Assembly: GCF_000757825.1 (NCBI RefSeq)
Contig: NZ_CP009451.1
Coordinates: 2,170,001 to 2,234,000, forward strand
Origin: Cedecea neteri
GTDB lineage: Bacteria > Pseudomonadota > Gammaproteobacteria > Enterobacterales > Enterobacteriaceae
Direction: 5' to 3'
Length of the DNA stretch: 64,000 nt
The notes below the pieces were generated by a model, which had not been told where the DNA came from, ran no database searches, and saw only the letters and a program-made list of their open reading frames with translations. Made by a program: the position numbers and the translations under genes. Below, one piece after another: positions 19,953 through 50,855 of this stretch. Within the stretch, counting starts at the first letter, position 1, and each line of letters starts with the position of its first letter.

Positions 19953-21863
19953 TTACAGCTTACTCAGGCACTCCATCGCCACCGCTTTAAAACTGTCAAA
20001 ATCCTTGCTGTCGCGCAGCCGAATCATCGCCCGCTCGCGCAGGAATGTCACAAACAGGTCGTAAATCGCCATCGCCTCTTCGTATTCACTTTTGCTGATA
20101 GCCAGCAGGAAGATCACGTGCGCCGTTTCGTCGCCCCAGCTGATACCGTGCGGTGCCAGCACGGTGTAGACCACGGTTTTTTTCGCCAGCAGGCCTAACG
20201 AGTGCGGCAGCGCAATGCCCTCACCCAACATGGTGCTGACGATCGCTTCTCGCTCCACCACCGACGGATGGAAATCTGAGTCAACGACACCTTCCCGCTC
20301 CAGCTGCTCGCAGAGCGTCAGGAATAGCTGCTGCTGGGTCATCGGCTGGTCGATAATACGAAAGTGGCTGGCATCAAAGAATTTCTCCAGCATGTAAGGG
20401 CGAGTTCTGTCCACCAGTACCAGCTTGCCAAGCTGCTCCAGCTGATAATCGGTCGGGAACGGCGCCATCATCACAACCGGCTTTTCTTTCTCGCTGATGC
20501 GCGCCGTGCTGATCACAAAATCTTCATCCACCGCGTCGAGCTGTTCGTAGTCGCGCAGGGAAATAATGTGGGTTACTTCCACCTGCGGATATTTACGCAG
20601 CAGCATGGCCTGCAGCATGCGCACCGTCGAGTTGCCGGTATCACAAACCAGCAGCACGCGAGGATGACGCTGGTAGCCAATGTTGTAGTGGCGCTCCAGG
20701 CCAACGCCGATATGCAGCACCAGAAAACCAATTTCGTTCTCGCTAATAGCGTAAGGCGTGTATTTTCCCCAGCTTGAGACCGCCGCCAGCGTCATGTCGT
20801 AAGCCAGCGGATAATGCTGCTTGATGTTGGCCAGCAGTGGATTCGGGATGTTTATCTGGTAGCGTACCCGGGTGATCATCGTTTTGATGTGGGTGAGCAG
20901 GTCGGCGTGCAGCTGCTCGTCACCGAGCAGGTTGTAGTTATAGTGGGTGTTGATGTAGCGCAGGATGTAGTTAACCAGCGCTTCGTCATCGTCGGCATTG
21001 ATCGCGCTCGGCGCCACTTCCTGCACCTGCCGTGAAGCAATATGCACCTGCAGCCACTGCTCTTCGGCTTCCGCCAGGGGTTTACCCGCCAGCTGCTGCA
21101 TCAAGCCGGCAATCTGGCGCGCGGCCTCTTTCACCTGTATATCGACGTTATCCGCCGTGAACTCCGGCAAAGGATAGCCCTCGCTGATGCGGCGCACCGC
21201 CACCGAACAATAAAGACGAATAAACTGCTCGCCCTCATCGGTTAAGCGGATGCGGCAGCGGGTAAAACAGTCATGCAGCGAGCTGGTGAGCTGCTCAGGC
21301 ACGCCCGCGTTAAGGGCTTCTTCGGTCAACAGGGGATTTTCGCTGTCCTCTAAGGTCAACTGCCACAGCAGATCCGTCAGGCAGGCGCGAATAGACGTTT
21401 CGCTGCCGAACAGCTTCATGCCGTGGCGCGGGCGCGTCTCAATGGTCAGATGGTAGCGGTTGAACCACTCACGCACCTCCGCCATATCGCTTTGCAGCGT
21501 GGCGCGGCTGACAAACCACTCTTCGGCCAAATCTTCGAGCTTCAGTGAAAACGCCGCCGTCAAAAAACGCACCACGAGGTAATGCACGCGTTCTGGTGAA
21601 GTACGTGGGATACGCAGCTGGCGCGGGCGATGCTGAACCAGCTCGCCGTAACGTTCAGCATCCTCGATATTCAGCTGATAGCCCGCGCCACGGGTCAGCG
21701 TAAACTGAGCCCCGAAGCCGGCCATCAGCGCATTAAGCGCCGTGATATCGGCTCTTACCGTGCGGGTAGAAACGGACAAACGCCGCGCCAGTTCATCCTG
21801 GGGCAGCGTTTCGTTTTGCAGCATCTCAAAAAGCTGAGCCAGCCGTTGATTGGGGAATCTCAC
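19953..21863 (-). CDS. PRD-containing PTS regulator with EIIB and EIIA domains
   Basis: The 636-residue protein has an N-terminal HTH_11 (about residues 5-60), a second Mga-like HTH (about 88-150), two PRDs with candidate phospho-histidines His274, His319 and His384, an EIIB-like domain with VLLVCDTGNST (Cys407) and a fructose/mannitol-type EIIA domain with GEGIALPHS (His554). This architecture is that of MtlR/LicR-type activators, whose activity is set by PTS phosphorylation. It is the last gene of the cluster, 46 bp after the lactonase. Its presence implies that the cluster substrate is sensed through PTS phosphate flow although no classical EIIC is encoded. Confidence 0.88.
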   Translation of the reverse strand: MRFPNQRLAQLFEMLQNETLPQDELARRLSVSTRTVRADITALNALMAGFGAQFTLTRGAGYQLNIEDAERYGELVQHRPRQLRIPRTSPERVHYLVVRFLTAAFSLKLEDLAEEWFVSRATLQSDMAEVREWFNRYHLTIETRPRHGMKLFGSETSIRACLTDLLWQLTLEDSENPLLTEEALNAGVPEQLTSSLHDCFTRCRIRLTDEGEQFIRLYCSVAVRRISEGYPLPEFTADNVDIQVKEAARQIAGLMQQLAGKPLAEAEEQWLQVHIASRQVQEVAPSAINADDDEALVNYILRYINTHYNYNLLGDEQLHADLLTHIKTMITRVRYQINIPNPLLANIKQHYPLAYDMTLAAVSSWGKYTPYAISENEIGFLVLHIGVGLERHYNIGYQRHPRVLLVCDTGNSTVRMLQAMLLRKYPQVEVTHIISLRDYEQLDAVDEDFVISTARISEKEKPVVMMAPFPTDYQLEQLGKLVLVDRTRPYMLEKFFDASHFRIIDQPMTQQQLFLTLCEQLEREGVVDSDFHPSVVEREAIVSTMLGEGIALPHSLGLLAKKTVVYTVLAPHGISWGDETAHVIFLLAISKSEYEEAMAIYDLFVTFLRERAMIRLRDSKDFDSFKAVAMECLSKL

Positions 21864-21909
21864 TACCGTTTCCTTTGGTTATCGGGGCACACTGGCGCCC
21901 CGTCCTGCT

Positions 21910-23061
21910 TTACTTAAACGGGGTGAAGACCATCTGCGACGGGCTTCCCACCGCCGTATAATCCTCGATAAAGGTTAATTTACCGTTGCCCGGCGCCACG
22001 CTAAAGCGAGTGATATTGTCGCTGCGCTGGTTCAGGGCATAAAGATGTTTGCCGGTGCTGTCCAGCGTCAGGCCTCGTGGATAGTCGCCACGCGTCCAGA
22101 TATCGTCCTGATGTGTAAGCTCGCCGTTAGAGCCCACGCTGAAATGTGCGATGCTGTTATGCAGACGGTTGGCCACATACAGCTGCTTGCCGTCGTGGCT
22201 CAATACCAGGCCCGCCGCAAAGCTTGTGCCCTTATAGCCTTTTGGCAGCGAAGAGATGGTCTTCCCTTCGGTCAGCGTGCCTTTCTCACGGTCGAGCTTG
22301 TAATGGCTAAGCGTAGAGGCTTCTTCGTTAATCAGCCACAGGCCTGAACCGTCCGCAGAAAAGACAAAGTGGCGTGGCCCTGCGCCTTTTGAAGAGGCGG
22401 AGATGAACGGCGGATCGTTTGGCTCCAGCACGCCTTTGTTTTGATCAAAGCGATACTGGTAGATCCGATCCAGGCCAAGATCGGTCGAGAAAACAAACTT
22501 GCCGCTCGGATCGGCGGCAATCATATGGGCATGTGGGCCGTTATGATCGCTGGCGGCGAAGCTACCTTCTACCGCTGCTTCTGGTTTCGCCGCGCCCGGC
22601 TCGCCGCTGTCCTGATGTTTGTCGCTGGCTTCCTGCAGGCTGCCGTCGGCATTAACCGGCAGCACGGCGATAGAGCCGCTCACGTAGTTTGCCACCAGCA
22701 GGTGCTTGCCCTGCGGCGTCAGAGACAGGTAAACCGGGCCAGCGCCACCGGAAGAGACCTGGTTTAGTTCGGTCAAACTCCCGTCATCGCCTACGCGCAA
22801 TGCTGCTACCACGCCTTTCTCCGCTTCGCTGGCAACGTACAACGTCTTGCCGTCCGGCGACGCGGTAAGCTGCGCGGCGTTTGGCAGCGAGCTAACCAGC
22901 GTTTTCTCGCTAAGCGCACCGGTTTTGGCGTCCAGCTGGAAGCGATAAAGACCTTCGCCGTTCGGGTTGTAGGTGCCAACCCAGGCATAATGGCTTTGCG
23001 CCGCGCTGTTGCCGGCGGCGAGTAAGGCAAATGAAGCAACAAGCAGAGTGCGTGCAGACAT
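21910..23061 (-). CDS. Secreted seven-bladed beta-propeller lactonase (YbhE/Pgl-like fold)
   Basis: The 383-residue protein begins with a Sec signal peptide (MSARTLLVASFALLAAGNSAAQ, cleavage near 21-22) and continues with lactonase repeats such as YVASEAEKGVVAALRV, NGPHAHMIAADPSGKFVFSTDLG and GAGPRHFVFSADG. Cytoplasmic Pgl enzymes of this family hydrolyse 6-phosphogluconolactone, but a periplasmic version must act on an unphosphorylated lactone or another ligand. The gene lies within the same-strand cluster between the aldolase and the regulator. I infer hydrolysis of a sugar lactone before uptake; this is unproven. Confidence 0.78.
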   Translation of the reverse strand: MSARTLLVASFALLAAGNSAAQSHYAWVGTYNPNGEGLYRFQLDAKTGALSEKTLVSSLPNAAQLTASPDGKTLYVASEAEKGVVAALRVGDDGSLTELNQVSSGGAGPVYLSLTPQGKHLLVANYVSGSIAVLPVNADGSLQEASDKHQDSGEPGAAKPEAAVEGSFAASDHNGPHAHMIAADPSGKFVFSTDLGLDRIYQYRFDQNKGVLEPNDPPFISASSKGAGPRHFVFSADGSGLWLINEEASTLSHYKLDREKGTLTEGKTISSLPKGYKGTSFAAGLVLSHDGKQLYVANRLHNSIAHFSVGSNGELTHQDDIWTRGDYPRGLTLDSTGKHLYALNQRSDNITRFSVAPGNGKLTFIEDYTAVGSPSQMVFTPFK

Positions 23062-23097
23062 GCGTTTGTCCTCGAAGTGTGGTTGATGAGGATTATA

Positions 23098-23182
23098 CCC
23101 TCACCCTAACCCTCTCCCTAAAAGGGAGAGGGGATCTTTCTTTTCCCCCTCGCCCCTTTGGGGAGAGGGTCGGGGTGAGGGG
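23098..23182. repeat. GC-rich palindromic repeats, copy 2 (inverted pair)
   Basis: The segment starts CCCTCACCCTAACCCTCTCC, has AAAAGGGAGAGGGG, then a second arm CCCCTTTGGGGAGAGGGTCG ending GGGTGAGGGG. It thus contains two inverted copies of the element that can form one long stem or two hairpins. It occupies nearly all of the gap between the aldolase and lactonase genes and may lower or separate expression of the lactonase and regulator. Confidence 0.88.
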
Positions 23183-23192
23183 AAACAGTGCT

Positions 23193-23933
23193 TTACCCCA
23201 CCAGTTTCTTCGTCATCGCCAACAGCGTAGCCACATCCGCCGGGCGCGTATTGCCGCTGGCCTTGTCGATAATCGAGCTGTAAATATGCGGGATCACTTT
23301 GCTCACGCCGGCGTCCAGCGCAATCTTCAGGATCTCTTCGAAGTTTTCGAGATCGATACCGCCGGTCGGCTCCAGCCAGAAGTCATGCTTCGCACAGGCT
23401 TCCGCTACAGCCTGATACTCTTCGCGGCACTCCAGCCCGCCCATCGGGAAATATTTGATTGAGCTGCCGCCCATATCCTTCAGCAGCGCAATCGCGGTTT
23501 CAACAGGCACGATGCCGTCTGCCGCACCGGAGCTTAGCGGGCCGGTGGAGATTTTCACCATTCCGACGGTGCCGGTTGGCGAAACCAGGCCGTTAACCAC
23601 GCTGTCGTTCTGGCCCAGCAGCGCACGGCTGGTGCCCACGCCGGTAAAGACCTGGTTGACGTGCTGAGGCTGAATCTGGTCGGAGATTTCACTCACCATC
23701 GCCGATTGATTCGGGTCGCCCGCACCAAGGCCGACGGACAGCGCGTTGTCGATAAGTGCCGCGTAGTCACGCATATCGGCAACCGCACTTTCTACATCCG
23801 GGTAATTTTTAGACAACACGCCGACCAGCACGTGGCCTTCCGCCGCCTGGTAAATCTCTTTGGCGTTCTCTTTAGAGCCTGCCAGCACGTTCAGGCAAAC
23901 GCGGTCGCGGTAAAAATTTGGGGTCAGTTTCAT
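23193..23933 (-). CDS. DgaF-like KDGP aldolase family protein
   Basis: The 246-residue protein resembles DgaF of the Salmonella D-glucosaminate pathway and the TIGR03581/PF07071 family. It begins MKLTPNFYRDRVCLNVLAGS and has IKYFPMGGLECREEYQAV and WLEPTGGIDLENF; a lysine in SSIKYFPMG is the likely Schiff-base residue by analogy with KDPG aldolases. The expected reaction is cleavage of 2-keto-3-deoxygluconate-6-phosphate to pyruvate and glyceraldehyde-3-phosphate. It begins 2 bp after the lyase gene stop, so the two enzymes are tightly coupled. The exact substrate is inferred. Confidence 0.82.
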   Translation of the reverse strand: MKLTPNFYRDRVCLNVLAGSKENAKEIYQAAEGHVLVGVLSKNYPDVESAVADMRDYAALIDNALSVGLGAGDPNQSAMVSEISDQIQPQHVNQVFTGVGTSRALLGQNDSVVNGLVSPTGTVGMVKISTGPLSSGAADGIVPVETAIALLKDMGGSSIKYFPMGGLECREEYQAVAEACAKHDFWLEPTGGIDLENFEEILKIALDAGVSKVIPHIYSSIIDKASGNTRPADVATLLAMTKKLVG

Positions 23934-23935
23934 GC

Positions 23936-25048
23936 TTATTTCTCCTTGCTTACCAGCGCTTTGATGCAGCGGTAAATAATCTCCAGCTGTGCCGCGCTTA
24001 CGCTGCGCACATCCGCTTCAATAATGCCTTCATTCGCCTTATAGCCACGGAAGTAGATGGCGTATTCGCCCTGCTTCAACGCGCTGACCAGCTCGCCGGT
24101 GCTGATGCCGACGGTCGCTTCGTCGAACTTGATTTCGCAGCGGGCGATATCGCGGCCGGCTGCATCCCACACTACGCGGGCGGTTACGCCATTCAGCGTG
24201 TTCAGACTGTCGATAAACGGCATCATTTTGGCGACCATTTCGGCCCCGCTCTCTTTGGCCGCGCTCAGGTAATGTTCAATCGCGCAGGTCAGGCCGAGGA
24301 TGCCTTCTTTGCCAACTTTCATTGCACGCCCGATGCCGCCGGTTTGCAGCTTCACCCACTCGACGTACTGCTCTTTGCCGATCACCAACCCGCTGGTTGG
24401 GCCTTCGATAGCTTTCGCCCCGCTGTAAATCACCAGGTCGGCCCCGGCACGGTAATAGCATGCCAAATCTTCTTCTGCCGCAGCGTCTACGATCAGCGGC
24501 AGGTTGTGTTTACGCGCCACGACCACGGCCTGCTCAACGCTGAGCATGCTTTTCTGCACCGAGTGGTGGGATTTGATATACAGAATGGCCGCCGTGCGTG
24601 GAGAAATAGCCGCAGCCAGCTGATCCGCTGAACATTCGTTGGCGTAGCCTGCTTCGACGATTTTGCCACCGCCCAGGTTCACCATGGTGCCAACCGGCGC
24701 GCCGAAGTTAACGTTGTGGCCTTTCGGCAGCACGATCTCGTTGTTCTCCAGCGGGGCCGCATGCAGGTTCTCGATCAGCCATTGATTGTCTTTCACCAGC
24801 ACCGCCGCCACGGACTGGGCGATACCGGCAGAAGCGCAGGACACCACGGTCGCCGCCTCAACGTCGAGCAGCCCGGCAATGTAGGCGCCTGTCTTATTAA
24901 CCAGATCCTTCATTTCAAAGTAGTGGTTCATACCGGTGGTTACCGCGTCCACCACTTCCGGACGTGGCGTGGACACGCCGAGGGCGGTCATGCGGCCGGA
25001 TGCGTTAATTACCTGTTTTAAATTGTATTTTTCATAGATCGAAGACAT
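23936..25048 (-). CDS. DgaE-like PLP-dependent lyase (SelA/fold-type I family)
   Basis: The 370-residue protein is of the DgaE/SelA-like aminotransferase-fold group, starting MSSIYEKYNLKQVINASGRM, with VVSCASAGIAQSVAAVL for cofactor binding and IVDAAAEEDL then YSGAKAIEGPTSG, where Lys212 is the likely PLP lysine. DgaE converts D-glucosaminate-6-phosphate to 2-keto-3-deoxygluconate-6-phosphate plus ammonia. The start at 25046-25048 was preferred to one at 25123 because homologues begin there and the upstream part overlaps the next gene. The pairing with the DgaF-like aldolase supports a two-step route to central metabolism. Confidence 0.82.
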   Translation of the reverse strand: MSSIYEKYNLKQVINASGRMTALGVSTPRPEVVDAVTTGMNHYFEMKDLVNKTGAYIAGLLDVEAATVVSCASAGIAQSVAAVLVKDNQWLIENLHAAPLENNEIVLPKGHNVNFGAPVGTMVNLGGGKIVEAGYANECSADQLAAAISPRTAAILYIKSHHSVQKSMLSVEQAVVVARKHNLPLIVDAAAEEDLACYYRAGADLVIYSGAKAIEGPTSGLVIGKEQYVEWVKLQTGGIGRAMKVGKEGILGLTCAIEHYLSAAKESGAEMVAKMMPFIDSLNTLNGVTARVVWDAAGRDIARCEIKFDEATVGISTGELVSALKQGEYAIYFRGYKANEGIIEADVRSVSAAQLEIIYRCIKALVSKEK

Positions 25049-25061
25049 GTTCTGTTTTCCC

Positions 25062-26165
25062 TTATTCACAGTCAAACCACTTCCCGGCGCGCACCGCAGC
25101 CAGCGCCACCAGCACCTGGTCACCCGTCAGCGTTTGCTGCTCTGCATCGGTAAATACCGTTGGCTGGCGGCGAAGCTCGAAGACGGTCAGGTCGCCGTCC
25201 AGCCCTACGGCCAGGCGGCCTTTATTTTTCAGACGTAATCCATCGGCAGCGTGAACGGTCACGCAGTCGATCACCTGAGGCAATGACAGGCCGATGGAGA
25301 GGAATTTAGACATCACCGCGCCGAGTGAATGCACCGGGCCGCTGATGCGGTTGCGGCAGTAGATGTCCGAGCTGATGCTGTGCGGCAGAATGCCCTGCTG
25401 AATAGCGACACGCGCCACGTCAAAACTAAAGCTGGCGGTGCCGTGCCCGACGTCCAGACGCACACCGCGCTGAATAGCCTGCGCTACGGAGGCTCTCAGC
25501 TGCCCGGCCGGGTTGAGAATGCGGTTTGGCTTGCCGTTGTAGCAGTGGGTAATGATGTCGCCGCTGGTCAGCAGTTCGGCCACTTCATCGAGGTCCGGCG
25601 GGTTGTTGCCGATGTGCACCATCAGCGGCAAATCGCCGTTTTCTTTCTGGATAGCCTTGGCGCGCACCAGCGGCGTAATGCCGTTATCGCCCACCACGCT
25701 GCTGCTCATCCGCGCTTTTAAGCCCACGATAAAGTCCGGGTGGCGCTTCACCGCGCCGCGCACGGCGTCAGCGTCGATATTCGCCATATTGGACAGTTCG
25801 TTTTGGGCAATCAGGCCCACGCGGGAAATGTTCAGCAGGGCATAAACTTCGGTCGTCGCGCTGCGGGTGATTTGATAAAAATCGTCGACGTCATCGGCGC
25901 CGGTGCTGCCCGCGTCCACCACCGTAGTGACACCGGTATGAATACCCACGCTGTCAGGCTCGTCGTGGTAGATAGGGGACCTGGGGTAACAGTGAACGTG
26001 GGAGTCAATCCAGCCGGCGCTAACGTAGCATTCGCCGTTCAGCTGGCGTTCTTCAGTTGCCTCGCCGGTTATCTTGCCTAAGGCGGCAATCTTGCCGTCC
26101 TTCAGGGCGATATCGATAACGGTATCGTCCACCAGCCGCGCCTCGCGCAGGATCAGGTCAAACAT
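25062..26165 (-). CDS. Metal-dependent amidohydrolase (dihydroorotase/deacetylase-like)
   Basis: The 367-residue protein has the amidohydrolase pattern: SAGWIDSHVHCYP with metal ligands His56 and His58, a candidate carboxylated lysine Lys150 in IVGLKARMSS, His184 in LMVHIGNN, His207 in ITHCYN and a later Asp near SISSDIY. It is close to the group annotated amidohydrolase/deacetylase (TIGR03583, EF_0837-like). In this cluster it probably opens a cyclic amide or removes an N-acyl group before the PLP lyase step. It lies between the DUF4310 gene and the lyase gene (13 bp upstream of the latter). Confidence 0.8.
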   Translation of the reverse strand: MFDLILREARLVDDTVIDIALKDGKIAALGKITGEATEERQLNGECYVSAGWIDSHVHCYPRSPIYHDEPDSVGIHTGVTTVVDAGSTGADDVDDFYQITRSATTEVYALLNISRVGLIAQNELSNMANIDADAVRGAVKRHPDFIVGLKARMSSSVVGDNGITPLVRAKAIQKENGDLPLMVHIGNNPPDLDEVAELLTSGDIITHCYNGKPNRILNPAGQLRASVAQAIQRGVRLDVGHGTASFSFDVARVAIQQGILPHSISSDIYCRNRISGPVHSLGAVMSKFLSIGLSLPQVIDCVTVHAADGLRLKNKGRLAVGLDGDLTVFELRRQPTVFTDAEQQTLTGDQVLVALAAVRAGKWFDCE

Positions 26166-26220
26166 ATTTTTCTCCTTAACTGGCGGGCGAGCCGCAGCCC
26201 GTCCGCCCTGGAAATACTGC

Positions 26221-26862
26221 TTACAACGCTACCGGGAAGATCGAGCCTAAGATCATTGCGCCGAGGATCGCCCCGCCGGTGATCGGTTTGCCCCAGAGAT
26301 AAAACAGCAGAGAGCCCACCAACGAGCCGATACCGATTGGAATCGAAGCCGTCATGGCGCTGAGGATAATCAACGGCCCGAGGAAGCGGCCGGAAGCGTT
26401 ACCCGCGCCCATCATGACGTCCGCCCCGTAGGTGGAGTCGCTCTGATTGATGGTGAACTTACGCGCCAGGATGATGAGGTAGCCAATGGCCAGGCCAATC
26501 ACCAGCCCGGTGATCAACGAAGCGCCAAAGTTAGCGACCGGGAAAACAAAGCCTGCGCCCAGCAGCAGCGCCGGAACGCCGAGGCCTACGCCGGTTTGAA
26601 TCGCCCCACCGATATCCAGAATCCCCACCAGCGAACCTTCAATGATGCGGGCAAACAGGAAGCTTGCGCCAAACGCCGCCACCGCACCGTAAACGCCGGT
26701 ATCAATCCCCGACTTCAGCATCGCCACGAAAGCCACTTCGTTAAACGCGCCGATACCGTACAGGTAGTACATATGCGTCCCGGCAAACACGCCGGAGGAG
26801 AGCAGGCCCACAAAGATTGGGAATGACCAGTCCGCGTACCAAAAACCTTTATTCTGTTCCAT
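26221..26862 (-). CDS. DUF4310 family membrane protein (orphan transporter subunit)
   Basis: The 213-residue protein begins MEQNKGFWYADWSFPIFVGL and contains about six hydrophobic segments, many rich in glycine (LDIGGAIQTGVGLGVPALLLG; SIPIGIGSLVGSLLFYLWG; ITGGAILGAMILGS). It belongs to the DUF4310 family (EF_0832/EF_0833-type cluster proteins), known only as part of a conserved cluster of unknown function. The glycine-rich repeated helices recall PTS EIIC subunits of the mannose and glucitol superfamilies, but that is an impression. It starts 11 bp after the DUF4311 stop, so the two likely form one complex. Confidence 0.75.
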   Translation of the reverse strand: MEQNKGFWYADWSFPIFVGLLSSGVFAGTHMYYLYGIGAFNEVAFVAMLKSGIDTGVYGAVAAFGASFLFARIIEGSLVGILDIGGAIQTGVGLGVPALLLGAGFVFPVANFGASLITGLVIGLAIGYLIILARKFTINQSDSTYGADVMMGAGNASGRFLGPLIILSAMTASIPIGIGSLVGSLLFYLWGKPITGGAILGAMILGSIFPVAL

Positions 26863-26873
26863 GCGTTATCCCC

Positions 26874-27650
26874 TTATTTGCCGCTCAGCGAGTTATGCAG
26901 CAGATCCAGCCAGTTCGGCACGGTCATGTGGAAAGACTCGATCATCTTCATGTCGAACCCACGGAAGAAGGCACTCAGAACAAAGAGGGCAACGATAGCC
27001 GTCATCATCACTTTGGTAACGCGGTGCCAGCCGCTTTCTTCAACGCCTTTACCGATCAGGATGCCAAGCACCAGACCCGGTACGGCGTTACCCATGATCA
27101 GCTGCGCTGCGCCGCCGAAGATGGTTGCCCAGAAACCAGATTTTTTACCGGCGTCGATAGCCGCCAGCCAGAAAATAACCGGCATCACGGTGTTCACCAG
27201 CAGGTTGGCCGCAGGCACCAGCACTTTCACCGCCGTCACCTGAAGCGCCGCCGGCACCGCAGACGCGGTTGAGTTCAGAAACGCCACCACGATCATGCCG
27301 ATGATGCCGCAGGCGATAGCCATTTTTCTTGGGTCGTGGAGGGTTTCCGCCACGTTGCGATTCTTCACCATCAGTGCCGCCGCGCCCCAGTTAGGGATGA
27401 TGCGGTGGTCAACGTCCTGGGTGAACGCACCTGCTGCAACGGAAGAAGCCCACGCGTTGAAGAAGAAGCCGAGGCCAAAGGAGAAGTGAGAAGCCGGGTC
27501 CCCTTCGCAGGAGTTCAGCTCGCCGAGTGTACGAAATGCGCCCATGCCCTGAGTGGTTGGCGCATGGAACATACGCGCGGCTCCGGCACCAACGCCCACG
27601 CCGACGAGGCCGCCGATAATGAGTGATTTTATTAATATAATTAAGAACAT
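26874..27650 (-). CDS. DUF4311 family membrane protein (orphan transporter subunit)
   Basis: The 258-residue protein starts MFLIILIKSLIIGGLVGVGV and has about seven membrane segments with long soluble loops (NSCEGDPASHFSFGLGFFF; QDVDHRIIPNWGAAAL). It belongs to the DUF4311 family, always found with DUF4310 and DUF4312 as far as I know. The Cys in NSCEGDP and the conserved His are polar residues in what may be a substrate path. Together with DUF4310 it is the only integral membrane component of the cluster and so the best candidate permease. An ERIC element separates it from the upstream DUF4312 gene. Confidence 0.75.
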   Translation of the reverse strand: MFLIILIKSLIIGGLVGVGVGAGAARMFHAPTTQGMGAFRTLGELNSCEGDPASHFSFGLGFFFNAWASSVAAGAFTQDVDHRIIPNWGAAALMVKNRNVAETLHDPRKMAIACGIIGMIVVAFLNSTASAVPAALQVTAVKVLVPAANLLVNTVMPVIFWLAAIDAGKKSGFWATIFGGAAQLIMGNAVPGLVLGILIGKGVEESGWHRVTKVMMTAIVALFVLSAFFRGFDMKMIESFHMTVPNWLDLLHNSLSGK

Positions 27651-27654
27651 GAGT

Positions 27655-27787
27655 CTGCCCTTTTCTACCCTGCTTATCTGTCGCTGTAGCCGCGTTAGCT
27701 ACGCTCAGTCACCCGAATCACTTACCCAAGTAAGCTCATCGGACTGCCTTCCCTTGCTGCCTTGCTACAACACCAGCTAATTGGGTA
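27655..27787 (-). repeat. ERIC-like element inside the operon (diverged copy)
   Basis: The 133-bp interval holds CTCAGTCACCCGAATCACTT followed by ACCCAAGTAAGCTC, which on the minus strand reads as the ERIC core GAGCTTACTTGGGTAAGTGA. The outer arms are diverged compared with the copy at 39226. It fills the gap between DUF4312 and DUF4311, two genes expected to be cotranscribed, so it becomes part of the mRNA as a long hairpin. Confidence 0.82.
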
Positions 27788-27799
27788 TAAATGTTTGAA

Positions 27800-28096
27800 T
27801 TAACTAGAGACGAAATCTACCTCATCGAGGTTAAGAGCCGTCACGTTGACGGAAACATCCAGCTCCACGCTGTAGCTCCGCCTTTCCCGACGCAGGAAGA
27901 AGAACAGAAAAGCTTCTTTGCGCACCCTGACCTGCGCCTGAACAACCTGCACGTCCTGTGGCTCAATGCGCAGAAGAATGTGGTTGGTGGATTTGAGCAC
28001 CGTGCCCTGAACGTGGTTCAGGGCGTCGGAGAAGGCTTTGGCTTTGGTATCGCCGCGCCCGCTGACTCGCACCGTAGTTGCGAATTTCTCTTTCAT
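27800..28096 (-). CDS. DUF4312 family small protein
   Basis: The 98-residue soluble protein starts MKEKFATTVRVSGRGDTKAK and belongs to DUF4312 (EF_0831-like). It has alternating hydrophobic stretches suggestive of a small alpha/beta fold of the size of an EIIB domain, but lacks cysteine and has a single histidine. The ATG lies 2 bp after the stop of the SFCGS gene, implying translational coupling. Function unknown; I infer a soluble partner of the membrane pair. Confidence 0.72.
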   Translation of the reverse strand: MKEKFATTVRVSGRGDTKAKAFSDALNHVQGTVLKSTNHILLRIEPQDVQVVQAQVRVRKEAFLFFFLRRERRSYSVELDVSVNVTALNLDEVDFVSS

Positions 28097-28098
28097 AC

Positions 28099-28461
28099 TC
28101 AGCTGCCGTACTTCTTGTTCCAGGCCAGCACCAGGCGCTCGCCCAGCTCTTCTTTATCCATAAAGCCAAAGCCAAGCACGTTGTTGCCTTCGTTAATCGC
28201 CGTCACGCCTTCATCAACGGAGCGCATGCCGTATTTGGCTTTGTAGCCATGTTTGGTTTGTGCGGTGATAGCGCCTGCGCCACCGCTGCCGCAGAAGGAA
28301 ATACCAAAAGTGGCATTTTCTGCTTTCATCACGTCGCCCAGCTTCATGTCGGCGGCGACGCCTGGAATAACCACGGCGCGACCGCCCGCTTTTTCGATCC
28401 CTGCTGCAACTTTCTGGCCTTTGCCCAGACGGTCACCAATCACTACGGTAATTTGTTCCAT
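28099..28461 (-). CDS. Glycine-rich SFCGS family protein
   Basis: The 120-residue soluble protein begins MEQITVVIGDRLGKGQKVAA and contains the signature FGISFCGSGGAGAITAQTKH, with Cys57 in the glycine-rich loop. The family (PF14272, EF_0830-like) is known only from this cluster type. A lone conserved cysteine at a glycine-rich turn in a small alpha/beta protein is reminiscent of the phosphocysteine of PTS EIIB domains; this is inference. The start at 28459-28461 was chosen because AGGAGAAAAAA precedes it and the preceding 21 codons overlap the PRD gene. Confidence 0.75.
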   Translation of the reverse strand: MEQITVVIGDRLGKGQKVAAGIEKAGGRAVVIPGVAADMKLGDVMKAENATFGISFCGSGGAGAITAQTKHGYKAKYGMRSVDEGVTAINEGNNVLGFGFMDKEELGERLVLAWNKKYGS

Positions 28462-28478
28462 TTTTTTCTCCTGATGAT

Positions 28479-28781
28479 TCAAAGATTGTCTTTCGCCACT
28501 TCGAAATGCACTGACAGCAACCACGCTTCTTCTACCGGCAGATTCCCGAACTGATCGACCACCGCCTGCGCCATTTCCATCGACTCGGCGGAGATCTCTT
28601 CGAACAAGCTCTCTTCCACTTCTGGTAACGGCTCCCCGGTGAGAGAGCGATGAATCATCGCCTTCACGTGGGAGGCCAGCATTTGTTCCTGTACCGCGTT
28701 GGGCGTGATGTGCTTACTTTTGAACAGCGCGTAAATAAAATCCTGAATACGCGTCGTTAATTCCTCGGCTTCATTAACCAT
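28479..28781 (-). CDS. Single-PRD small protein (EF_0829-like)
   Basis: The 100-residue protein (MVNEAEELTTRIQDFIYALF) is one stand-alone PTS regulation domain with the two family histidines, His38 in ASHVKAMI and His92 in LSVHFEVAK. It has no DNA- or RNA-binding domain, so it probably relays phosphorylation state or binds another protein, perhaps the C-terminal regulator. The start at 28779-28781 has GGAG five bases upstream; a longer frame to 28967 runs into the leader and has no family character. It is the first gene of the ten-gene cluster. Confidence 0.75.
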   Translation of the reverse strand: MVNEAEELTTRIQDFIYALFKSKHITPNAVQEQMLASHVKAMIHRSLTGEPLPEVEESLFEEISAESMEMAQAVVDQFGNLPVEEAWLLSVHFEVAKDNL

Positions 28782-29235
28782 TACCGCTCCGTTATTCACC
28801 CTGGGTACCTCGTTAACTAATCTGTTTTTTAAACTACCTGGCGGGGTGGAAGGTTTGTAGCGAGTTGTTTTCCACTTCGAAGTGGAAATCGGTGAGGCAA
28901 TAGTGATCTGTTCCACATAAAGGCCCGGAATGGCGGTTTTCAGCTGGCTTACCGTGAATCTGGTCACATAACCGAGTGATAAAAGGCCCCTTTTCCAGCG
29001 GCCCTTTTTGTTCGAAAGTGTGATGGGAGGACAGTTTTGCCGCCATTATTGGCGTTGCTTATGGCAAAGGAATCGACGTTCACGAGGTATCACGCAAAAG
29101 TGAAAGCGGGAGATAGCAAAGAAGTCAGGCGCGCTTTAGGCTGATTTTCGCCTGGTTTTGCCACCAGCATCAGCAATAAAAATTAGCTTATAAGGCAATT
29201 TAATTGCTATGTTAACCTCGTCAGGGAGTGACCGT
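28782..29235. promoter_or_regulatory. Divergent control region between the orphan cluster and higB-higA-mdcR
   Basis: The 454-bp region must carry the promoter of the ten-gene cluster on the minus strand and one for the toxin-antitoxin-mdcR genes on the plus strand. A hairpin with arms AAAAGGCC (28981-28988) and GGCCCTTTT (29000-29008) and flanking A/T runs could be a leader terminator for either strand. Repeated TTCGAAGTGGA/TCCACTTCGAA sequence around 28870-28887 forms a perfect inverted repeat (TTTCCACTTCGAAGTGGAAA), a plausible regulator operator. Confidence 0.55.
28869..28888. promoter_or_regulatory. Perfect 20-bp palindrome upstream of the orphan cluster
   Basis: TTTCCACTTCGAAGTGGAAA is a perfect inverted repeat with no central spacer, 88-107 bp before the PRD gene start. 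It looks like an operator for a dimeric helix-turn-helix protein. The PRD/EIIA regulator of the cluster is the obvious candidate; HigA is another. Confidence 0.6.
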
Positions 29236-29489
29236 ATGTTTCGCGTTCAATTGCATGTGGATGTCTTCGATGAAATAACAGAATTGCCTCCCGTCGTTCA
29301 GGCAAAAATGCTGCGTCTGATTGATAAAATTAAACAAAATGCGACATCGCTGCGTGAGCCTGATAGCAAACCCTTAGGCAATGGGCTGTTTGAAATAAGG
29401 ACGATGGGAACCCTTATCGCACGGGGGCTTTATGTCTACCAAAGCTGGCTTTTCAACGACTAGAGGAGATGCTCAATGAAAAAGAGTAA
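29236..29489 (+). pseudogene. HigB/Gp49-type RelE-family toxin, internal deletion and frameshift
   Basis: The frame from 29236 (MFRVQLHVDVFDEITELPPV) follows this toxin family through NGLFEIRTMGTLIARGLYVY and then changes to QSWLFND and stops at 29463, only 75 residues instead of about 110. The missing family C-terminus is readable in another frame from 29445: LAFQRLEEMLNEKE ending at TAA 29487-29489. So about 20-25 codons, normally covering the strand LLRIFIKKTQKT, were deleted out of frame. The toxin should be inactive. The original stop still overlaps the higA start, as in intact loci. Confidence 0.82.
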
Positions 29490-29763
29490 AAGTATCGACT
29501 GGGAAAAAGCGCGCGCAGACCTGCTAACCAACCCCGAAGTACAGGCCGCTTATGAAGCCGAAGAGCGTAAGCTGCGGCTGCAGGCAATGCTTGCTGAATG
29601 GCGCAGCCATGAAGGGCTAACACGCGCACAGGTTGCCGAGCGTATGGGCGTCACGCCGCCAACGGTCTCTCGTATGGAAGCCAATATTATCAAAGCCAGT
29701 ATTGAAACCGTTGTCCGCTACGCAAAAGCCTGCGGCGTCAAACATCCAAAGATTATCCTCTAA
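29476..29763 (+). CDS. HigA-type XRE-family antitoxin
   Basis: The 95-residue protein has an N-terminal acidic/amphipathic region (KARADLLTNPEVQAAYEAEE) and a C-terminal helix-turn-helix (LTRAQVAERMGVTPPTVSRMEANI). It is the partner of the adjacent broken toxin and remains intact, so it may survive as a regulator. Its TAA stop overlaps the ATG of mdcR by one base (TAATG), which can couple mdcR translation to it. An AGAGGAGAT ribosome site precedes it. Confidence 0.85.
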   Translation: MKKSKSIDWEKARADLLTNPEVQAAYEAEERKLRLQAMLAEWRSHEGLTRAQVAERMGVTPPTVSRMEANIIKASIETVVRYAKACGVKHPKIIL

Positions 29764-50799: not shown

Positions 50800-50855
50800 A
50801 AAAATGGGGCCGTCCCCGTTGTGAGATGCGCTTGCGGGTCGTCCCGTAAGGCTTA
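50800..50855 (-). promoter_or_regulatory. Guanidine-II (mini-ykkC) riboswitch upstream of gdx
   Basis: On the minus strand two short hairpins occur in tandem: CGGG-ACGA-CCCG (50835-50846) and GGGG-ACGG-CCCC (50806-50817). Both loops fit the ACGR consensus that binds guanidinium. The second hairpin is about 20 bases before the gdx ATG and close to the ribosome site CTGGAGCTGTT. Ligand binding makes the loops kiss and should free the ribosome site. Confidence 0.92.

Follow-up and report, generated by a model that had tools for sequence, protein, structure and literature searches.

Comparative genomics points to a possible role in the uptake and catabolism of N-acetylated amino-aldonic acids for a phosphotransferase-associated gene cluster of Cedecea neteri

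What do four widespread protein families do together when no function is described for any of them in the databases and literature that we searched? The question is raised by a cluster of ten genes from Cedecea neteri (contig NZ_CP009451.1), located in a stretch of 64,000 nucleotides that we analysed and refer to as the window, where genes for the SFCGS, DUF4312, DUF4311 and DUF4310 proteins are accompanied by catabolic enzymes and by proteins with domains typical of regulation by the phosphotransferase system (PTS). The answer we favour, with a probability of about 0.52, is that the cluster is a PTS-controlled operon through which an N-acetylated 2-amino-2-deoxy-aldonic acid is taken up and degraded, the likeliest candidate being N-acetyl-D-glucosaminate (GlcNAc1A). 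A role in the import and breakdown of some amino-aldonate is the part in which we are most confident, the N-acetyl group on the substrate is probable, and delivery of the cargo in a phosphorylated form is proposed only tentatively.

According to this reading, DUF4310 and DUF4311 would form a membrane carrier, and DUF4312 together with the SFCGS protein would be its cytosolic partners, a role suggested by their co-segregation with the membrane proteins. The carrier may hand over its cargo phosphorylated, as the genomic linkage of a sugar kinase hints. The acetyl group would then be removed by the amidohydrolase, a DgaE-type lyase would eliminate water and ammonia to yield 2-keto-3-deoxygluconate-6-phosphate, and a DgaF-type aldolase would split this product into pyruvate and glyceraldehyde-3-phosphate. 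The stand-alone PRD protein and the transcription regulator would signal the phosphorylation state of the PTS via conserved histidine residues.

The ten genes listed by an earlier note on the window are indeed all present on the minus strand (10/10 open reading frames verified), and their family assignments were confirmed (table 1). The order of transcription is PRD, SFCGS, DUF4312, DUF4311, DUF4310, amidohydrolase, lyase, aldolase, lactonase and regulator. Seven of the first eight proteins pass the cut-offs of NCBIfam models of the hypothetical-equivalog type (TIGR03582, TIGR03577, TIGR03578, TIGR03580, TIGR03579, TIGR03583 and, for the aldolase, which also exceeds the cut-off of the DgaF equivalog NF047796, TIGR03581), and the lyase passes the subfamily-level model TIGR01437. 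The operon is thus a member of the EF_0829-EF_0839/AHA_3910-3917 cluster, to which the models TIGR03577-TIGR03583 refer and whose descriptions include neither the fold, nor the module structure, nor the kinase linkage reported here. The stand-alone PRD protein has no match in Pfam at E <= 0.001, and at the same threshold no EIIC, EIID or ABC family of Pfam matches any of the ten proteins. The absence of a classical EIIC, remarked on earlier, holds for the window, but not for all of its relatives, as detailed below.

A single scan, in which genome contigs were searched with a DUF4311 alignment headed by a sequence from Enterococcus, retrieved 501 encoding stretches, the best 80 of which were kept; this sample, comprising loci (designated by L numbers) from Bacillota and Proteobacteria, is biased towards relatives of the leading Enterococcus DUF4311. 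With a gene scored as present when the window protein gave a blastp match of >25% identity and >40% cover, DUF4310 and DUF4311 are each found in 80/80 loci, SFCGS in 79, PRD in 78, DUF4312 in 77, the amidohydrolase in 76, the lyase in 75 and the aldolase in 72, with some of the misses (e.g. L050, L020, L021, L054) explained by contig ends. Because the set recurs in nearly all 80 loci, the association is far from chance, which supports the view of one functional system. The lactonase, initially counted as a component, is present in a single locus out of 80 and is thus considered peripheral. The window-type regulator occurs in 27/80 loci, and weaker matches to PRD regulators were obtained in others, with the domains checked for L008 and L016. 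Among genomes drawn from the order and from the phylum of the window, DUF4311 scores over the cut-off in 41/295 and 5/249, respectively. Several members deviate from the standard form. Two Lactococcus clusters have apparently decayed, one (L053) with no PRD, SFCGS or DUF4312 match, the other (L063) with the frames of lyase and MupG split and DUF4312 likewise unmatched. The SFCGS frame of a Providencia locus (L057, 9275-9949) is 225 amino acids long with no separate DUF4312 match, possibly reflecting an SFCGS-DUF4312 fusion or a frameshift. Frames of 273-274 amino acids in G199:C60 (L006) and G258:C45, with a weak partial DUF4311 match (profile positions 143-181), may represent distant relatives.

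The cluster consists of two separable modules. L016, L024 and L031 contain the transport genes but not the enzymes, although the contig continues, and SFCGS, DUF4312 and a PRD-bearing gene remain with DUF4311 and DUF4310. A search for the lyase in the genomes of these three loci and of L053, L050 and L020 gave a hit over the cut-off in five out of six, and in the three genomes with split modules the lyase is encoded elsewhere (3/3), flanked by the amidohydrolase and the aldolase (L146, L147, L145); there the enzymes come after a classical PTS EIIC and a MupG/GH170 glycosidase and before a gene resembling KDG kinases. Since SFCGS and DUF4312 stay beside the membrane proteins when the modules split, we regard them as probable parts of the transporter.

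The enzymes may also be combined with other importers. A gene of the MupG family (MupG/GH170 glycosidase) is located 3 kb or less from the cluster in 16/80 loci, 15 of which also have an EIIC; an EIIC, recognized by its blastp similarity to the L009 protein with the PF02378 domain, is near the cluster in 16/80 loci, that of L056 being only 28% identical (the domains of both proteins were checked on one representative each, for EIIC that of L009). Six further regions (L160-L165) were fetched around lyase or kinase matches, the search being restricted to genomes holding a DUF locus. Four of them (L160-L163), whose genomes have a DUF transport locus as well, display the order EIIC, MupG, amidohydrolase, lyase, aldolase and PfkB kinase; DUF transport genes are absent from these stretches, and in L160 a GntR regulator stands in front of the module. 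In L164 the contig opens with the kinase. In L165 a lyase of the same subfamily and an aldolase adjoin mannose-family EIIA, EIIB, EIIC and EIID, with no deacetylase or kinase within the 19 kb read. This last pair (L165, 8128-15502) belongs to a Vagococcus genome (G364) that also has an EIIC/MupG module (L161) and a DUF module (L016), i.e. three importers for one pathway.

The kinase, whose best NCBIfam matches are 2-keto-3-deoxygluconate (KDG) kinase models, all below the cut-off, adjoins the core in 13 of the 16 loci with MupG (12 with MupG and EIIC, one with MupG only) versus 0/64 loci without it, 58 of which extend at least 1.5 kb beyond the core. It is found 3' of the aldolase in enterococci and between the lyase and the aldolase in L053 and L063, and these two positions make two origins of the linkage probable. 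L013, which has MupG and no linked kinase, ends at a contig end, and the kinase of that genome opens another contig; in the genomes of L016, L024, L031 and L034 the close kinase sits in the separate EIIC/MupG module. A cellobiose-type EIIC and a hydrolase of the GH170/MupG family (ChbC and ChbE) are needed for diacetylchitobiose in Lacticaseibacillus paracasei, as stated in the available part of the source (PMC12791066). If the imported disaccharide ended in an aldonic acid, the glycosidase would free an unphosphorylated acid, and a KDG kinase would then be needed after deamination. The DUF-only clusters and the mannose-PTS version, which come without the kinase, fit a DUF transporter that phosphorylates, and the kinase linkage may be taken as a hint that it does so.

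Residues and profiles of the enzymes are consistent with the proposed pathway. K213, H162 and H163 of the lyase are conserved, as are R304, R335 and R349 (in 74, 73 and 73 of 75 rows, respectively, the remainder being gaps), which align with Arg301, Arg332 and Arg346 of DgaE (7lc0); all three arginines are retained in 77/77 long lyases, whatever the genomic context. The available text of the DgaE paper (PMC9529869) describes the three DgaE arginines as the site of a hand-docked phosphate. The amidohydrolase is close to the solved structures 8wzy and EF_0837 (2ics) and weakly similar to PpOngB (9kb1, a GlcNAc1A deacetylase) and 9kb3 (E 8e-4). EF_0837-type enzymes have been reported as esterases or deacetylases in vitro. 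We deem deacetylation more likely than the opening of a lactam, which the earlier note had ascribed to this enzyme. The aldolase, with 3m0z among its solved relatives, passes the DgaF equivalog cut-off, in agreement with pyruvate and glyceraldehyde-3-phosphate as the predicted end products. The joint occurrence of a deacetylase, an amino-acid lyase and a 2-keto-3-deoxy-6-phosphogluconate (KDPG) aldolase argues for an N-acetyl 2-amino-2-deoxy-hexonate, and hence for the N-substituted amino-sugar acid envisaged before. GlcNAc1A is the likely substrate; it occurs in nature as a product of lytic polysaccharide monooxygenases (LPMOs) acting on chitin, according to the sections available of two reports (PMC9537276, PMC12017989). 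Chitin oxidation is a candidate source and not an established one, with LPMO_10 detected in 13 of the 34 holder genomes searched.

DUF4311 and DUF4310 are polytopic by hydropathy and remain, as previously suggested, candidates for the permease; no hydrophobic segment was found by hydropathy in DUF4312, SFCGS or the PRD protein. Four histidines of DUF4311 (H55, H82, H105, H252) are conserved in 81/81 rows. Both histidines of the PRD protein (H38 and H92) are kept in 76/76 rows, and HPr is encoded by 29 of the 30 cluster-holding genomes searched (the exception being the metagenome-assembled genome (MAG) of L052), which supports the notion of PTS sensing. Neither the PRD histidines nor those of DUF4311 constitute an EIIA domain, but both could carry phosphate. 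E. faecalis EF0834, which carries the annotation of a cellobiose-type PTS subunit, appears in a list of targets of NagY, an N-acetylglucosamine antiterminator, in the available portion of one study (PMC12502629); by locus-tag order this gene falls inside the EF_0829-EF_0839 cluster and corresponds to the EIIC of the E. faecalis cluster.

The SFCGS protein adopts, in a confidently predicted structure (predicted local distance difference test score, pLDDT, 91.9), the fold of ribose-5-phosphate isomerase B (RpiB). Its Cys57, present in 80/80 rows, pairs with Cys66 of RpiB from the window genome (L113; hhalign probability 56%), a position that we take to be the catalytic base in E. coli RpiB. SFCGS thus shares with RpiB/LacAB isomerases the fold and a cysteine after the third strand, yet it is shorter (120 versus 149 amino acids in RpiB of the window genome), is co-inherited with membrane proteins and misses the gathering score of PF02502 (LacAB_rpiB; 13.3 versus 24.7 bits), a model that matches 24/43 SFCGS members at E <= 10 (best E 0.0023). 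The earlier note had cast SFCGS and DUF4312 as phosphoryl-transfer domains of the PTS type, and this part of it was not supported. The RpiB fold and the hhalign values (E 1.2e-4 for RpiB versus E 0.34 for EIIB) speak against an EIIB-type domain in SFCGS; a lactose EIIB (3nbm) ranks 48th in the structure search with the model (E 0.014), and none of the 12 matches to PF02302 in the window genome is at SFCGS. As for DUF4312, no histidine or cysteine of the window protein is conserved across 78 rows. No EIIA with a phosphorylatable histidine was found inside the transport module either, the sole EIIA_2 match of the operon being in the regulator. That Cys57 serves as a phosphoryl carrier is, in our opinion, unlikely, although this invariant residue may still have some phosphoryl role.

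A number of observations weigh against the reading that we prefer. The significance of the kinase-MupG linkage (Fisher p 1.8e-12) is overstated, as the loci are related and mostly from Enterococcus. L018 and L041 have MupG without a linked kinase, and kinases 43 to 61% identical are present in other genomes with a MupG-less DUF locus. In L021, a MupG-less DUF cluster, the contig ends inside the lyase. A 58% identical kinase opens another contig of the genome, and the gene after it shares 58 to 64% identity with the downstream neighbour of the kinase in the Enterococcus loci; L021 thus probably has a linked kinase without MupG. Because of this locus we graded lower both the phosphorylated-cargo step and the reading as a whole. 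The lyase was not found in the MAG of L050 by the profile search. The window lyase, though DgaE-like at the level of the subfamily, misses the cut-off of the DgaE equivalog (373.8 versus 600 bits), as do three other lyases tested, including one beside a mannose-family PTS. Lyases and amidohydrolases of different contexts are intermixed in FastTree trees, and since all the lyases share the three arginines, these residues cannot separate a phosphorylated substrate from a free one. LPMO_10 was not found in the window genome, and within one order its association with the cluster is not significant (15/41 holders versus 63/254 non-holders, Fisher p 0.13). The searches detected nothing resembling EIIC, EIIA or EIIB among the domains of the transport module: Pfam EIIC models match none of 16 DUF4311 and 21 DUF4310 members at E <= 10 with HMMER filters on, and hhalign comparisons of both families with EIIC-GAT and CelC were negative, a weak test given that EIIC-GAT and CelC do not match each other. 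A joined DUF4311-DUF4310 model, a poor one (pLDDT 60.4), has no structural match at E <= 0.001.

Some of these points would suit a non-phosphorylating importer, in which the free acid enters via DUF4310/DUF4311 and, once deaminated, is phosphorylated by a KDG kinase whose gene lies elsewhere, in the manner of the Pseudoalteromonas ong system, with SFCGS in a regulatory or structural role. The established GlcNAc1A route phosphorylates at KDG only, according to the parts available of its descriptions (PMC9537276, PMC12017989), the transport module has no recognizable phosphoryl-transfer domain, kinase-family matches of 23 to 33% identity occur in many holder genomes, and L021 probably adds a linked kinase. 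We nevertheless consider such an importer rather unlikely, given the contrast in visible kinase linkage between loci with and without MupG, the invariant PRD histidines, and the lack of any kinase match (E <= 0.001) in 5/25 Bacillota holders of a MupG-less DUF locus (L050, L051, L070, L077, L080), at least the first of which is a MAG.

It is less probable still that the substrate is another N-acyl D-amino acid or a muramic-acid derivative instead of a chitin-derived aminohexonate. The original description of MupG is that of a 6-phospho-muramidase (PMC6262408, PMC12791066) and other enzymes of the amidohydrolase superfamily use N-acetyl-D-amino acids (PMC12017989), as far as the available portions of these sources tell, and the non-significant LPMO association points the same way; however, the KDPG aldolase equivalog implies a six-carbon 2-keto-3-deoxy acid, and diacetylchitobiose is the sugar handled by a GH170 enzyme next to a cellobiose-type EIIC in the available part of one of these reports (PMC12791066).

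The boldest extension of our reading, which we regard as improbable, would be a new class of phosphorylating transporter made of two membrane proteins of a new family, with SFCGS carrying or activating the phosphoryl group on Cys57 and the stand-alone PRD, charged by HPr, acting as a carrier instead of a regulator. A second example might be provided by the E. coli yhf operon (L007, 5936-12423), which has a similar trio of a small PRD protein (YhfY), YhfU (DUF2620) and polytopic YhfT. YhfY matches TIGR03582 with E 1.6e-6, yet at 28 bits is below the 69-bit cut-off; YhfU has a weak LacAB_rpiB match (E 0.065), and its Cys52, present in 5/5 YhfU sequences, pairs with Cys57 of SFCGS. YhfT shows no detectable hhalign relation to DUF4311 or DUF4310, the SFCGS-YhfU relation is weak too (probability 2.9%), and the yhf operon differs in its enzymes (PLP enzymes and a phosphotriesterase homologue) and has no DUF4312 annotated. 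The window genome also encodes YhfT. Finally, SFCGS acting as an RpiB-like isomerase or epimerase on the imported acid, with Cys57 as the catalytic base and the membrane proteins as an ordinary carrier of a new family, would accord with the predicted fold, the aligned cysteines and a structure match to 4u8f, an RpiB-family isomerase of hexosulose-uronate, but is very unlikely, as SFCGS follows the membrane proteins and not the enzymes in 3/3 module splits, is without a match in the EIIC modules L160-L163 of genomes holding it elsewhere, and misses the LacAB_rpiB cut-off.

Two known systems are instructive for the PTS-controlled amino-aldonate operon proposed here. Salmonella dgaABCDEF (PTS DgaABCD, lyase DgaE and aldolase DgaF), which serves D-glucosaminate, has the lyase subfamily and the aldolase equivalog in common with the window and yields the same end products as those proposed here; its importer is, however, a PTS, of the mannose family by a reference title, in place of the DUF proteins, the available text of its description (PMC9529869) names no deacetylase corresponding to our amidohydrolase, and the window lyase stays under the DgaE equivalog cut-off. 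The Pseudoalteromonas ong system (OngIT, OngB, OngC, KdgK) follows the same logic of deacetylation, deamination dependent on pyridoxal 5'-phosphate (PLP) and formation of KDG-6-phosphate, but employs an SSS-family transporter, a deaminase of fold type III and a kinase of its own; its OngB is a subtype V amidohydrolase. PRD, SFCGS and the DUF proteins are not mentioned for it in the parts available (PMC9537276, PMC12017989).

Table 1. Genes of the Cedecea neteri cluster, with positions in the window and supporting family models.
Product	Position	Strand	Family evidence
Stand-alone PRD protein (EF_0829 family), 100 aa	28479..28781	-	TIGR03582, 127 bits (cut-off 69)
SFCGS glycine-rich protein (EF_0830 family), 120 aa	28099..28461	-	PF14272, TIGR03577
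DUF4312 (EF_0831 family), 98 aa, soluble	27800..28096	-	PF14189, TIGR03578
DUF4311 (EF_0832 family), 258 aa, polytopic membrane protein, candidate permease subunit	26874..27650	-	PF14188, TIGR03580
DUF4310 (EF_0833 family), 213 aa, polytopic membrane protein, candidate permease subunit	26221..26862	-	PF14187, TIGR03579
Amidohydrolase (EF_0837 family), probable N-deacetylase	25062..26165	-	TIGR03583, 562 bits (cut-off 432)
DgaE-family PLP ammonia-lyase	23936..25051	-	TIGR01437, 600 bits (cut-off 385)
DgaF-type 2-dehydro-3-deoxy-phosphogluconate aldolase	23193..23933	-	NF047796, 399.9 bits (cut-off 300)
Secreted 7-bladed beta-propeller lactonase (signal peptide by eye)	21910..23061	-	PF10282
HTH/Mga/PRD/EIIA_2 transcription regulator	19953..21863	-	PF08279, PF05043, PF00874, PF00359

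Some further features of the window concern the spacers and surroundings of the operon. The gap between DUF4312 and DUF4311 (27651-27799) measures 149 bp, whereas the median over 77 related loci is 21 bp and five of these have a gap of 60 to 162 bp; it contains GTAAGTGATTCGGGTGACTGAGCG, present in a single copy in the window, and may represent a small mobile or repeat element within the operon. The gap between the aldolase and the lactonase (23062-23192) includes a hairpin, CCCTCTCCC..GGGAGAGGG, perhaps marking where the core operon gives way to the lactonase. A RelE/HigB-like and XRE-like gene pair, identified by eye at 29209-29763 and divergent from the operon, is possibly a toxin-antitoxin system, and a guanidine-II riboswitch is located on the minus strand at 50806-50850.

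With 501 stretches encoding DUF4311 relatives in one scan, the four families are widespread, and the comparative evidence now provides them with a concrete role and a testable substrate. If the carrier does phosphorylate its cargo, sugar import would have co-opted an isomerase fold. Should GlcNAc1A be the substrate, the operon would represent a widespread second route for oxidized chitin, in enterobacteria as well as in lactic acid bacteria.

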